Assembly (NCBI RefSeq): GCF_011683915.1
Contig: NZ_JAAQPH010000002.1
Location: forward strand, 1-64,000
Origin: Pelagibius litoralis
GTDB lineage: Bacteria > Pseudomonadota > Alphaproteobacteria > Kiloniellales > Kiloniellaceae
Direction of reading: 5' to 3'
Length of the DNA: 64,000 nucleotides
Part shown: positions 50,262-54,103 of the stretch, piece by piece
Position numbering within the stretch: position 1 is the first letter of the stretch
How the letters are laid out: every line of letters begins with the position of its first letter
Position numbers and translations under genes: made by a program
The notes under the pieces: model-generated
The model's input: only the letters and a program-made list of their open reading frames with translations
Databases searched by the model: none
Told to the model about the DNA's origin: nothing

Positions 50262-50434
50262 GTTGCCCCGCGTTTGCAGGCCTAAGCGCAGAGAGCACGG
50301 TACCCCACCGCAGCGGGAATAAAGCCGGTGATCGGACCGTCTATTCCCCAGGGCAGGCCCATTCTTGACTCTCGCCTTCGGGCCGACAGCCCTCTACGTA
50401 ACTTTTCCATCTCAAGACTGGAAAGGCCGACGCT

Positions 50435-51877
50435 TTGGCTATTGGCTTGTCTTCGCAGACCGCAACGCAACCGCAAGATAGAAAAACGCCGGGCTCGGCC
50501 TATCCCCATCGGCCGGAGCCGTCGTCGCTGATCGACCGGATCGCCTTTCCGGCCTTTATCGTTGCGCTGCTCTTCCTCAGTTTCCTGGGCGGCGCTTTCG
50601 TCATGCTGAGCAACGTATTCCCGGCCGGCAAGTTGAGCGATGCCTACCGTGGGGGTGAGGCGCTGGTCGCCAAGATGCAGCAGTCGCGCAATCCCCTTGC
50701 GTCGGATTTCTGGGCCCCGGAACGCCGCCCGGAAGAGGGCGTGACGATCCATAATCCGGCGGAGGCCTATCCCGGTTACACGCTTTACACCTCGGGCCAC
50801 GGCAGTGAAGCCCTGCTGTTCTCCATGGATGGCCTTCTGGTGCATTCCTGGCAGTTGCCCTACAGCGCAATCTGGTCGGAGGAATCGCCGGTAGAGAAAC
50901 CGCAGCCCGACGAGTTCCAGTACTGGCGCAAGGCGATGATGTTGCCGAACGGCGATCTGCTGGCGATCTTCGTTGCCACCGGCGACACGCCCTGGGGTTA
51001 CGGCATGGTCAAGCTGGATCGCGATTCCAATGTGATCTGGTCCTACCTCGGCCAGACCCATCACGACCTGGACGTGGCTGCTGATGGCCGCGTCTATACC
51101 CTGATCCATCAGATGCGGAACAAGACCTTCGACGGTTTTCCGCAGCTGACGGTGCCGCGGCTCGACGACTTCGTCGTGGTTCTTTCGCCCGATGGAAAAG
51201 AAGAGAAGCGGGTTTCGATCCTGGATGCACTGGTGAATTCGGACTACGCGCGTCTGCTCGACCGGGTAACCTGGTTCAACAAGCACGACTTTATTCATAC
51301 CAACAATATCGACGTGATCGACGCCCAGGACGCCGCTGTCCTGCCGTTCGCGAAGGAAGGCCAGGTGCTGCTGTCGTTCCGCGATATCGACACCATCGCC
51401 GTGCTGGACCTGGAACAGGAAAAGATCGTCTGGGCCCTGCGCGGCACCTGGTTGGGCCAGCACGATCCCGATGTGCTGCCCAATGGCAACATTCTGCTGT
51501 TCGACAACGTCGGCAACTTCGGCCCCGGCGGGCGTTCGCGGGTGATCGAGATCGATCCGCTGAGCGCAGAGGAAGTCTGGCGTTACGCCGGCAGCGCCGA
51601 GCAGCCCTTCGAAAGCAACGTAAGGGCCGCCCAGCAAAGGCTTCCCAACGGCAACACCCTGATCACCGAGTCGACCGGTGGGCGTCTTTTCGAGGTCACC
51701 GACGACGGGCGCATCGTTTGGGAGTTCATCAATCCGATCCGGGCACGCCACCCGGAAAGGCCCGACGAGGTCATCGTCCCCGTGGTTTCCTGGGGGCAGC
51801 GGATTGCTGCCGATGGCCTGGATACGGACTTCCGTGAAGACCTGTCGCGACAAGAACAAGAGAGGAGCGTGCAATGA
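50435..51877 (+). CDS. Membrane-anchored arylsulfotransferase-like (ASST) beta-propeller protein
   Basis: A 480-residue protein, TTG start at 50435 behind GGAAAGG. After a 35-residue cytoplasmic segment there is one helix (about 38-60), then a periplasmic propeller of arylsulfotransferase type: ALLFSMDGLLVHSWQLP, MMLPNGDLLAIF, THHDLDVAADGRVYTL, GQHDPDVLPNGNILLFDN and RLPNGNTLITESTGGRLFEV are the successive blades. The histidines in THHD and GQHD are candidates for sulfate transfer. ASSTs move sulfate between phenolic esters without PAPS. It overlaps the next gene by four bases and leads a four-gene operon with a PAPS-type sulfotransferase. Confidence 0.8.
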   Translation: MAIGLSSQTATQPQDRKTPGSAYPHRPEPSSLIDRIAFPAFIVALLFLSFLGGAFVMLSNVFPAGKLSDAYRGGEALVAKMQQSRNPLASDFWAPERRPEEGVTIHNPAEAYPGYTLYTSGHGSEALLFSMDGLLVHSWQLPYSAIWSEESPVEKPQPDEFQYWRKAMMLPNGDLLAIFVATGDTPWGYGMVKLDRDSNVIWSYLGQTHHDLDVAADGRVYTLIHQMRNKTFDGFPQLTVPRLDDFVVVLSPDGKEEKRVSILDALVNSDYARLLDRVTWFNKHDFIHTNNIDVIDAQDAAVLPFAKEGQVLLSFRDIDTIAVLDLEQEKIVWALRGTWLGQHDPDVLPNGNILLFDNVGNFGPGGRSRVIEIDPLSAEEVWRYAGSAEQPFESNVRAAQQRLPNGNTLITESTGGRLFEVTDDGRIVWEFINPIRARHPERPDEVIVPVVSWGQRIAADGLDTDFREDLSRQEQERSVQ

Positions 51878-52146
51878 CTGGAAAGAAACGGCTCGTTGCC
51901 GGGCTGGGACTGGTGCTGACCTTTGCCTGGGTGGCCCCGGCCGCTGCCTATATCGGGCCGGGTGCGGGGCTTTCCCTGCTCGGCGCGCTCTGGGGCGTTT
52001 TCGCCGCCATTTTCGCCGCGCTGCTGTTCCTGTTGATCTGGCCTCTCCGGCGACTGCTGCGCCGCAATCGCCAGGCCCCGATTGCCCGGCAGCAAAGCGT
52101 CGAGACAGAGCTGGGGCAGGGATCCAAGAACCCTCGGATCGATTGA
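51874..52146 (+). CDS. Small membrane protein in the sulfotransferase cassette
   Basis: A 90-residue protein: an N-terminal signal or helix (about 6-25, AWVAPAAAYIGPGAG), a second glycine/alanine-rich helix LLGALWGVFAAIFAALLFLLIW (about 36-57), then a basic arginine-rich tail. The motif AAAYIGPGAGLSLLGALWGVF recurs in short bacterial proteins of unknown role. It overlaps the ASST-like gene by four bases (ATGA), so translation is coupled. Confidence 0.75.
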   Translation: MTGKKRLVAGLGLVLTFAWVAPAAAYIGPGAGLSLLGALWGVFAAIFAALLFLLIWPLRRLLRRNRQAPIARQQSVETELGQGSKNPRID

Positions 52147-52198
52147 TGGCGGAGCAGGTATCTCAAGGTGGATGGCAGTCTACGGCGCTTGAGGTTCG

Positions 52199-52960
52199 AT
52201 GACCGGCCTGCTTGATCTCACATCGCCCTTTCTGTCGACCTTGGACCAACCGCTCGCGGCGCTTCTGCCGGCCGCCGGCCGTTTGGCTGTCTGGGGTCTG
52301 GTTGCGGCCTCGCTCTCCATGGCGCTCTATGCATTGCTTTCCCCGCAAAGGCGCCTGCGGGGCGTGAAGGCCGCAGCGGCGGAGGCGAGGCAGGCGCTGG
52401 ACGATCATGAAGGCGGCGTTGCCGAGGCGATGCCGTTGATCGGCCGTATGTTCCGCAGCGCCCTGGCGCAGCTTGGGCTGGTCCTGGGCCCTGCGGTTCT
52501 GGCGTCCCTGCCGGTTCTTTTCATGATCGTCTGGTTGAGCGGCACTTACGGCCATTTTCTTCCTGACAGCATCACCGCTGTCGATCTTCGTGTCGAGCCG
52601 AGTGGCCTTGCGGCACGCTGGCTGCCGGAGGAGGGTGGCGAAGTTGGTAACCCGCCGTCCACGGCGCCGCGTATTCAGGTCATCGATGCGGCCGATCAGG
52701 TGATTGAGACGGTCGAGATCGATGCGGCGGTTACCAGTCTTCACAAGCGGCAGTGGTGGAACAGCCTCATCGCCAACCCGCTCGGCTACCTGCCGGCGGA
52801 GGGCGTGTTGGAGCGGATCGACATCGATCTGCCACGCCAGGAGGTGTTGAGCCTCGGGTCCGATTGGTTGCCCGGCTGGATGCGCGGTTGGGAAGCTGTT
52901 TTCTTCGCCGCCCTGCTTGCCGCCTCCCTGGCGATCAAGTTTATCTTCCGGTTGGTTTAG
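52199..52960 (+). CDS. Three-helix membrane protein, DUF106/EMC3-like layout
   Basis: A 253-residue protein with helices at about 27-47, 93-114 and 231-251. The first is followed by a charged, helical stretch containing SPQRRLRGVKAAAAEARQAL (48-90) that looks like a cytoplasmic coiled coil, then PLIGRMFRSALAQLG before helix 2. About 115 residues between helices 2 and 3 would be periplasmic. Helix-coil-helix-loop-helix with that SPQ+RL motif resembles the DUF106/EMC3/TMCO1 branch of the Oxa1/YidC superfamily. This is fold-pattern inference, not homology that I can prove. Confidence 0.7.
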   Translation: MTGLLDLTSPFLSTLDQPLAALLPAAGRLAVWGLVAASLSMALYALLSPQRRLRGVKAAAAEARQALDDHEGGVAEAMPLIGRMFRSALAQLGLVLGPAVLASLPVLFMIVWLSGTYGHFLPDSITAVDLRVEPSGLAARWLPEEGGEVGNPPSTAPRIQVIDAADQVIETVEIDAAVTSLHKRQWWNSLIANPLGYLPAEGVLERIDIDLPRQEVLSLGSDWLPGWMRGWEAVFFAALLAASLAIKFIFRLV

Positions 52961-52963
52961 ATC

Positions 52964-54103
52964 ATGAGCATGAGAAGCGCGGCGACAGAGGATCGCTATG
53001 CCGGCTTCCGGGTGACCCCCTGGGTCCATCACTGCGGACGTTTCGTGGCCCGGCACCGTGACTTCTGGATCCGGCTGGGCGAAGGGGAAACGCGCCTCAG
53101 AGCGGACGACATCGCCGAAACGACGATCGACCGGCCGATCTTCGTTTCCGGTCTGGCGCGGTCCGGCACCACCATCCTTCTGGAGGTTCTGGCCCGGCAC
53201 CGGGACGTGGCCAGCCACCGCTACAAGGACTATCCGTTCCTCTTTACGCCCTTTCTGTGGAACCGCTTTTTAAAGTACATGCCGCAGAAACGCGGGGTCG
53301 CCGTCGAGCGCAGTCATGCCGACGGTATCGCCGTTTCCCCCGACAGCCCGGAGGCCTTTGAGGAGGTGCTCTGGATGGCTTTCTTCGAAGGGCTGCACGA
53401 CCCCGCAGTTCGCAACGTTCTGGATGCCGCGACTGACAATCCCGCCTTTGAGCGCTTCTACGGTGATCACATTCGCAAGCTGCTCACGGTGCGCAGCCGC
53501 GCCCGCTACCTGGCGAAAGCCAACTACAACGTGACGCGGCTTGAGTATCTGCTGAAGGTGTTTCCGGACGCGCGCTTCGTCCTGCCCCTGCGCGCACCGG
53601 TCGGGCAGATTGCTTCGCTGGTCAAGCAGCACCGCTTGTTCTGCGAGGGCGAGCGGCGGCATCCGCGCGCGCTCGACCATATGCGCCGCATCGGCCATTT
53701 CGAATTCGGCCTCGACCGGCGGCCGGTGAACGTGGGCGACGGTGCGATGGACCAGGTGCTCGCGGCCTGGGACCGTGGTGCGGAAGCGGAAGGCTGGGCA
53801 ATCTATTGGGCGAGCCTGCATGGCTATCTGGCAGATCGCCTCGCGGCCAATCCGGCATTGGCGGCTGCGGTTAAGGTCGTGCGCTTCGAAGACCTCTGCA
53901 ACAGCCCTTTCGAGGTGCTGGGGGAGGTCTGTGCCCACTGCCGCCTGCCGGACTCCGCCCATCTCGTGGCTGAGGCAGCGGAGCTGATGCGTATGCCCAG
54001 CTACTACCGCCCGGATTTCACCGAGGCCGAACTTGCCCGGATCGACACGCTTGCCGCCCCGGTGGCCCGGCGTTTCGGCTATGCCGATGCGGTGGGGCTC
54101 TAG
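52964..54103 (+). CDS. PAPS-type sulfotransferase-family protein
   Basis: A 379-residue cytoplasmic protein. The 5'-phosphosulfate loop is FVSGLARSGTTILLEVLARH (60-79), followed by YKDYPFLFTPFLW, the 3'-phosphate block around FVLPLRAPVGQIASLVKQHRL (Arg and Ser positions as in sulfotransferases) and VKVVRFEDLCNSPFEVL near 306-322. It starts three bases after the three-helix gene. The substrate is unknown; in this cassette it may make the sulfated donor or product handled by the periplasmic ASST-like protein. Confidence 0.85.
   Translation: MSMRSAATEDRYAGFRVTPWVHHCGRFVARHRDFWIRLGEGETRLRADDIAETTIDRPIFVSGLARSGTTILLEVLARHRDVASHRYKDYPFLFTPFLWNRFLKYMPQKRGVAVERSHADGIAVSPDSPEAFEEVLWMAFFEGLHDPAVRNVLDAATDNPAFERFYGDHIRKLLTVRSRARYLAKANYNVTRLEYLLKVFPDARFVLPLRAPVGQIASLVKQHRLFCEGERRHPRALDHMRRIGHFEFGLDRRPVNVGDGAMDQVLAAWDRGAEAEGWAIYWASLHGYLADRLAANPALAAAVKVVRFEDLCNSPFEVLGEVCAHCRLPDSAHLVAEAAELMRMPSYYRPDFTEAELARIDTLAAPVARRFGYADAVGL

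Follow-up and report, generated by a model that had tools for sequence, protein, structure and literature searches.

A four-gene cassette of Pelagibius litoralis joins an ASST-type enzyme, two membrane proteins and a PAPS-type sulfotransferase and may relay sulfate across the inner membrane

The window analysed here is a 64,000-nucleotide stretch (contig NZ_JAAQPH010000002.1, positions 1 to 64,000) of the 6.0-Mb genome of Pelagibius litoralis. The system under study is a cassette of four genes within it, which encode an arylsulfate sulfotransferase (ASST)-type enzyme (gene 1, ASST), a small membrane peptide (gene 2, sm), a three-pass membrane protein (gene 3, mem) and a sulfotransferase of the kind that uses 3′-phosphoadenosine 5′-phosphosulfate (PAPS; gene 4, ST). 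A sequence-only reading had described four genes on one strand at 50435-54103, the first two overlapping by 4 bases and the last two 3 bases apart, and the open reading frame (ORF) coordinates bear this out (Table 1).

Table 1. Coordinates of the cassette genes, their main features and a natural fusion from a relative (window positions unless a locus is named)
Feature	Position	Strand	Description
Gene 1 (ASST)	50435-51877	+	480 aa, TTG start; GGAAAGG upstream at 50420-50426
Gene 1 N-terminal signal-anchor helix (predicted), residues 32-58	50528-50608	+	AF2 helix 32-58; hydropathy segment 40-58
Gene 1 H343 codon	51461-51463	+	Aligns with the QHD histidine of Cpz4 (profile) and with His436 of E. 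coli ASST (coordinates)
Gene 2 (sm)	51874-52146	+	90 aa; 4-base overlap with gene 1; predicted signal peptide, Y-[VI]-GPGAG, one TM helix, basic tail (alignment)
Gene 2 [AV]xA-Y[VI]GPG[AS]G	51940-51969	+	Predicted signal-peptidase site (before Y) with Tyr26 as mature N-terminus; 64/64 sm ORFs
Gene 3 (mem)	52199-52960	+	253 aa; 52 bases after gene 2; amphipathic helix, TM1, cytosolic helical hairpin, TM2, outside beta domain, TM3 (predicted)
Gene 3 beta-rich insert between TM2 and TM3 (about residues 118-225)	52550-52873	+	Conserved WWN...NP.GYLP; AF2 strands 129-210; conservation
Gene 4 (ST)	52964-54103	+	379 aa; 3 bases after gene 3; predicted soluble PAPS-type sulfotransferase, Sulfotransfer_3; PF13469 71.8 bits (cut-off 27)
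Gene 4 5′-phosphosulfate loop GLARSGTT, residues 63-70	53150-53173	+	R66, G68, T70 invariant 15/15
Gene 4 3′-phosphate-binding R210...S218	53591-53617	+	Both invariant 15/15
Tateyamaria fusion coding sequence, short three-pass protein + sulfotransferase	L168:3412-4902		496 aa

Gene 1 matches PF14269 at 94.6 bits (cut-off 27) and PF05935 at 31.3 bits (cut-off 24.2) and, judged from sequence and model together, is an ASST-type, PAPS-independent sulfotransferase with a putative membrane anchor and a beta-propeller fold. Its AlphaFold2 (AF2) model (predicted local distance difference test score, pLDDT, 84.8) begins with the N-terminal helix, followed by a second helix and then strands. Foldseek placed Cpz4 at the top (9kf6, a reaction intermediate, E 1.5e-16, and 9kf4), with many other propellers after it among the matches listed; E. 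coli AssT was not among the best 50 rows. In the alignment with E. coli AssT (3elq, E 0.09), H343 falls on His436, as read from the start coordinates of the aligned stretch. According to passages of a 2026 review (PMC13426309), the E. coli enzyme becomes sulfated on His436, and His252, His356, Asn358, Arg374 and Thr501 surround this residue. The H-x-N spacing of H288 and N290 in gene 1 is that of His356 and Asn358; H209/H210, H288, N290 and R316 were paired with E. coli residues by motif, and Thr501 found no counterpart. The conserved catalytic histidine on which the sequence-only reading had staked its proposal is retained: H209, H210, H288, N290, R316, H343, R369 and R417 are each present in 55 of 56 ASST rows, two partial rows being the two pieces of a split gene (L120) that each hold their half of the set. 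Transfer of sulfate from aryl sulfate donors is a predicted activity of gene 1. A search with gene 1 hit 10 of 190 genomes, among them the window's own, and partner genes accompanied the match in four (G000, G006, G244 and G111). Two haloarchaeal ASSTs lie near arylsulfatase genes.

In gene 4 we found no transmembrane (TM) segment. Both PAPS-binding motifs are present; within them R66, G68, T70, R210 and S218, invariant in all 15 sequences compared, are what we take to be the PAPS contacts, as the 5′ and 3′ motifs are defined. Use of PAPS by gene 4 is a prediction from motifs. The best matches of its profile in the PDB include tyrosylprotein sulfotransferases, and 2zq5, a bacterial protein of unknown function, matches equally well.

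From its sequence, gene 2 is predicted to be a secreted peptide with a single membrane pass. In all 64 copies a tyrosine stands right after the predicted cleavage site, which follows from the −3,−1 rule of signal peptidase; cleavage there would make this tyrosine the first residue outside, at the membrane. The peptide matched no Pfam family above cut-off and gave no match of note in the PDB.

Gene 3 likewise matched no Pfam family above cut-off. Its AF2 model (pLDDT 87.7) has a helix at residues 9-22, TM1 at 25-47, hairpin helices at 50-68 and from 74 on, TM2 reaching to 117, strands within 129-210 and TM3 at 231-250, with basic residues flanking TM1 and TM2 on the inside. The TM order and the cytosolic hairpin, as seen in model and hydropathy, agree with the layout of the Oxa1 superfamily, whose element order is set out in passages that call the TM2-TM3 segment hypervariable (PMC8675477). 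A 15-member gene 3 profile searched against the PDB found 5c8j, the archaeal YidC MJ0480, at E 2e-6 (next match 0.69), and a 49-member profile found it at E 5.3e-8 (next match 0.2), with similarity over profile positions 2-117. We considered whether this match was an artefact of hydropathy and rejected the idea: none of 3000 shuffles confined to blocks of 6, by which the pattern of hydropathy is preserved, reached the observed score (35.8 against a best of 18.1), and shuffles in blocks of 10 reached 19.8 at best. In hhalign, gene 3 gave 73% with the MJ0480 fragment. From these comparisons we take the first half of gene 3 to be distantly related to archaeal YidC. The suggestion in the earlier reading that a membrane protein flips or inserts a sulfated carrier gains weight from this relation, and insertase or scramblase activity is a candidate function for gene 3. 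The same reading had spoken of two small membrane proteins; the two are not equivalent, gene 2 being a predicted secreted single-pass peptide and gene 3 a predicted three-pass protein with an outside domain.

With gene 3 as sole bait, 67 loci were recovered from the named-genome collection. The counts that follow therefore describe co-occurrence given gene 3, and, since many loci come from one genus (Thalassospira foremost), they are counts of loci and not of independent events. The order ASST-sm-mem-ST on one strand is found at 49 of 67 loci; 51 carry each of the four genes once on one strand, and 53 carry all four in some form, so that the set does co-occur outside this strain, as the sequence-only reading had proposed to check. 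Variant four-gene forms number 4 of 67: one with two ASSTs (L058), one with the ASST as two ORFs (L120) and two with the ASST at the far end (L071, L073). The two ASST copies of L058 lie in a Kiloniellaceae metagenome-assembled genome (MAG) at L058:131-3322, and the two ORFs of L120, from Pseudomonas sp. PIC25, overlap (L120:6038-7605). Both sm and ST are present at 64 of 67 loci (sm is missing from L060, L109 and L116, ST from L109, L113 and L116), and one locus, L060, on a 3-kb contig, holds the mem-ST pair only. At 8 of 67 loci (L078, L086, L109, L111, L113, L114, L116, L118) an alkaline-phosphatase-superfamily gene is present and ASST is absent; all six of these genes that were checked match PF01663, and the pattern fits a swap of the outside enzyme. 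L053 likewise pairs an alkaline-phosphatase-superfamily gene with mem, with no ASST in its stretch.

By record titles the 67 loci are mostly from Alpha- and Gammaproteobacteria, with one betaproteobacterial locus and one Desulfobacteraceae MAG; the taxa include Thalassospira, relatives of Halomonas, Alcanivorax, Pseudomonas and Mesorhizobium, and the loci nearest to the window's in the named collection are Pelagibius MAGs. Gene 3 is rare, being found in 8 of 398 genomes of a phylum sample (the window's included) and in 1 of 72,556 plasmid records. In a plasmid relative, from Paroceanicella, RefSeq labels genes 2 and 3 only as 'hypothetical protein'. A phage origin was considered and rejected, gene 4 matching no phage record at E 1e-5. 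Among 51 loci, pairwise identities of ASST, mem and ST are correlated with r 0.90-0.92 and those of sm with the other three with r 0.71-0.75, against at most 0.24 in permutations (n=500), in a comparison that leaves shared species history uncontrolled.

A Pfam census of 128 flanking ORFs at 33 of the 67 loci was led by APS_kinase (adenosine 5′-phosphosulfate kinase) and the overlapping P-loop family AAA_33, with 6 each, followed by several families, MdoG among them, with 3 each; the loci were picked after the pseudomonad APS kinase was known, so that the census is not a blind sample. All six APS kinase ORFs match both families; four are from pseudomonads (L090, L102, L104, L110) and two, weaker at 63 and 48 bits, from Alphaproteobacteria (L063, L100). 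An ORF with APS kinase motifs stands next to ST at 7 of 7 Pseudomonas and Stutzerimonas loci (L090, L102, L104, L106, L108, L110, L120), four of which were checked with Pfam.

A second form of the cassette emerged with gene 2 as bait, which matched 22 of 398 genomes at E<=0.001. Eight of these were already known through gene 3, and one of the eight, G620, has a phosphatase-superfamily gene and no ASST in the stretch examined. Nine of the other 14 were fetched, five weak matches staying outside the set, and at seven of the nine (L153-L159) sm is accompanied by ASST and ST; the gene between sm and ST encodes a three-pass protein, which has either about 125-133 aa or, where an insert is present, 234-249 aa. 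The weak matches L160 and L161 have neither ASST nor ST. Copies of sm beside the short-type protein vary more (AYMGAGAG, AYSGPGVG, AYLGPGVG), with the tyrosine kept in the copies inspected. A profile of the short three-pass protein matched 4 of 385 alphaproteobacterial genomes, two of them the source of profile members (G111, G365) and two new (G039, G638), and in all four ASST, sm, the short protein and ST lie side by side. The cassette of G638 (L175) belongs to a 1.2-Mb alphaproteobacterial genome, in a stretch of 30% GC; a sulfoacetaldehyde acetyltransferase gene is one gene away, and galactarate-dehydratase-like genes, below cut-off, are near.

On a Tateyamaria plasmid the gene order is sm, one 496-aa coding sequence, ASST and two genes annotated as glycosyltransferase family 61, the first of which had no Pfam match. 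The long coding sequence is a natural fusion (Table 1): three hydrophobic segments fall within its first 115 residues and a sulfotransferase extends from residue 141 on (E 7e-97; PF13469). Its first 135 residues match the short three-pass profile (E 1e-7) and leave the gene 3 profile unmatched. By its sequence, the fusion links the short three-pass protein with the sulfotransferase, and if the sulfotransferase is to have access to PAPS, the C-terminus of the fusion should lie inside.

We read the four genes as a relay that takes sulfate across the inner membrane in two steps, similar to that of Cpz8 and Cpz4, and put the chance that this is correct slightly above even. In caprazamycin sulfation in Streptomyces, as passages of two papers describe it, the PAPS-dependent Cpz8 makes a phenolic sulfate that is the donor for Cpz4 (PMC4257720, PMC6731281). 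In the proposed relay gene 4, presumably docked on gene 3 where the two are not fused, would sulfate a membrane-bound aryl or lipid carrier from PAPS on the inside; gene 3 would keep the sulfotransferase at the membrane and may aid the sulfated carrier to the outer face; there the anchored ASST would load the sulfate on H343 and hand it on to an acceptor in the envelope, for which a glycan is the likeliest candidate. Gene 2 would be a small outside partner, its tyrosine placed to accept sulfate from the ASST or to pass sulfate to it. We favour this relay because of the fixed gene order at 49 of 67 loci, the conserved ASST residues, Cpz4 as top structural match, the PAPS motifs, the APS kinase neighbours, the fusion and the precedent of Cpz8-Cpz4, to which are added the full set in all four short-analogue genomes and the lipid scrambling by Oxa1-type insertases that is reported in the abstract of PMC10491306. 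The earlier reading had proposed that a cytoplasmic PAPS enzyme makes the donor of the ASST, and for this part the Cpz8-Cpz4 pair, which it left unnamed, provides a precedent; for the carrier (a lipid or phenol in that reading) no gene emerged.

The Cpz carrier is a triketide pyrone made by a type III polyketide synthase (PKS). One such gene is found on the window's contig (G000:C22:377875-378273), about 324 kb away. We rejected a type III PKS as the carrier maker, since the gene does not track gene 3: of 15 genomes that have gene 3, 7 also have the PKS, and of 29 that lack gene 3, 19 do, one of these 29 (G039) carrying the short type. Besides this distribution, several results weigh against the relay. 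No conserved acceptor pathway was found in the census, the cassette flanks sharing little else among the 128 ORFs of 33 loci. Five of 67 loci (L091, L093, L094, L099, L119) have sm-mem-ST with no ASST in the stretch examined. Conversely, the gene 1 matches of 5 of the 10 genomes (G098, G225, G243, G183, G196) have no partner in the stretch examined, the copy in G183 lying near a contig end and G168 being left out of the partner check, so that an ASST of the gene 1 kind can stand alone; close ASSTs (42-45%) are also alone in L034 and L035. Gene 3 shows no profile relation to the genome's own YidC (1.6% in hhalign). None of 15 gene 3 members matches the curated Oxa1 models PF01956 or PF02096, PF01956 giving no match to the cassette in a search at E<=10, and Foldseek found no solved fold like it (best E 0.45, no insertase in the best 50 rows). 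Because of the last two results we file gene 3 as a distant relative and not as a member of a curated family. Finally, no relation of the short analogue (A5) to gene 3, to MJ0480 or to solved structures could be detected.

Hints of an acceptor come from the flanks and are weak. Two short-type loci, L154 and L155, lie among glycosyltransferase or flippase genes. At 8 of 67 loci (L057, L083, L084, L088, L093, L094, L099, L105), in Pelagibius as well as in Gammaproteobacteria, the flank contains an OpgG/D (MdoG) periplasmic glucan-synthesis gene, encoded on the strand opposite to the cassette. Glucan synthesis with OpgG/D is a possible acceptor pathway, and since any of thousands of gene families might have turned up, the association could be chance.

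Other arrangements of the same parts were weighed. In one, which we think unlikely, sulfate is accepted or carried by sm itself, on its N-terminal tyrosine; the ASST (or ST) would form the sulfotyrosine at the surface of the membrane, with gene 3 inserting sm or keeping it in place. The tyrosine right after an AxA-type site in every sm copy is consistent with this, as are the tyrosylprotein sulfotransferases among the matches of the ST profile; tyrosine-containing peptides are listed among known acceptors of arylsulfotransferases (ASTs) in a passage of PMC13426309, and insertion of short membrane proteins by Oxa1-type proteins is described in a section of PMC8675477. A cytoplasmic ST, however, cannot recharge a tyrosine that is outside, which as sole carrier would be used once; the likeness of ST to the tyrosylprotein enzymes may reflect the PF13469 fold only, given the equal match to 2zq5, and the cleavage site of sm is a prediction.

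It is also doubtful that gene 3 merely anchors ST without flipping anything, with ST and ASST acting on different substrates at the two faces of the membrane. Such a scaffold would suit the coding sequence in which ST is naturally fused to a short three-pass protein, the lack of a Foldseek match of gene 3 to insertases and the 8 of 67 loci where gene 3 accompanies an alkaline-phosphatase-superfamily enzyme and no ASST. Against it, ASST, mem and ST diverge in step (with species history uncontrolled), the outside domain of gene 3 has conserved motifs, and the similarity to MJ0480 exceeds that of hydropathy-keeping shuffles. The boldest version of the relay, in which gene 3 would found a bacterial branch, new to the Oxa1 superfamily and near archaeal YidC, that has changed from protein insertion to moving a sulfated carrier across the membrane, with ST docked on one face and the ASST on the other and the N-terminal tyrosine of sm as hand-over residue, seems to us improbable as a whole. 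We regard as very improbable a scavenging role, in which the ASST would remove sulfate from aryl sulfates of the environment and its neighbours would form a loose sulfur-metabolism group: simple aryl sulfates do serve ASSTs as donors, ASST lacks partners in several genomes, two haloarchaeal copies are near arylsulfatase genes and one short-type locus is near a sulfoacetaldehyde acetyltransferase, but the fixed four-gene order with a PAPS-consuming enzyme, and with APS kinase neighbours in some lineages, points to making and not removing sulfate esters.

Around the cassette, the genes directly beside it encode aldolase, ABM and FAD-oxidoreductase/GCV_T proteins by Pfam. A 530-aa ORF lies opposite gene 1 on the minus strand (50282-51874), and similar antisense ORFs recur in relatives; we rejected the antisense ORFs opposite the four genes as genes, their recurrence in relatives having the pattern of coding-strand shadows. 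The promoter scan of the cassette found no sigma-70-like site, and the terminator scan counted 9 terminator-like sites where shuffled sequence gave 4.5 (sd 2.4).

The natural acceptors of most ASTs are described as unidentified, and their roles as poorly understood, in passages of the 2026 review (PMC13426309). An operon of fixed order that includes a PAPS enzyme offers a testable role for them, and if gene 3 does move a sulfated lipid, the Oxa1 superfamily would extend beyond protein insertion and there would be a route by which sulfate reaches molecules beyond the cytoplasm, where no PAPS is expected. In the open-licence literature we found no report of the four-gene set, nor of any pairing of an Oxa1 protein and a sulfotransferase. 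Among known systems, Cpz8-Cpz4 resembles the cassette in that a PAPS enzyme and an ASST are encoded together (53 of 67 loci) and in that gene 1 has Cpz4 as its top structural match; it differs in serving an antibiotic in Streptomyces, whereas the cassette belongs to Proteobacteria, has no PKS link, adds two membrane proteins and has a predicted membrane-anchored ASST. E. coli AssT shares the active-site residues of the cassette ASST but is found with the dithiol oxidases DsbL/DsbI instead of a PAPS sulfotransferase. The Oxa1 superfamily (YidC, EMC3, TMCO1, GET1; MJ0480) shares with gene 3 the order of amphipathic helix, TM1, cytosolic hairpin, TM2 and TM3, and MJ0480 also sequence similarity; unlike that superfamily, gene 3 has a predicted outside beta domain between TM2 and TM3, lacks a PF01956 or YidC match and sits in an operon with sulfotransferases. 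Bacterial sulfated-polysaccharide clusters contain sulfotransferase genes and recall the short-type cassettes L154 and L155 amid glycosyltransferase or flippase genes, whereas the window cassette has no such genes directly beside it. Taken with these systems, the cassette reads as a widely spread variant of a known two-step sulfation logic, in which, on the boldest view, an Oxa1-type protein may have been put to a new use.

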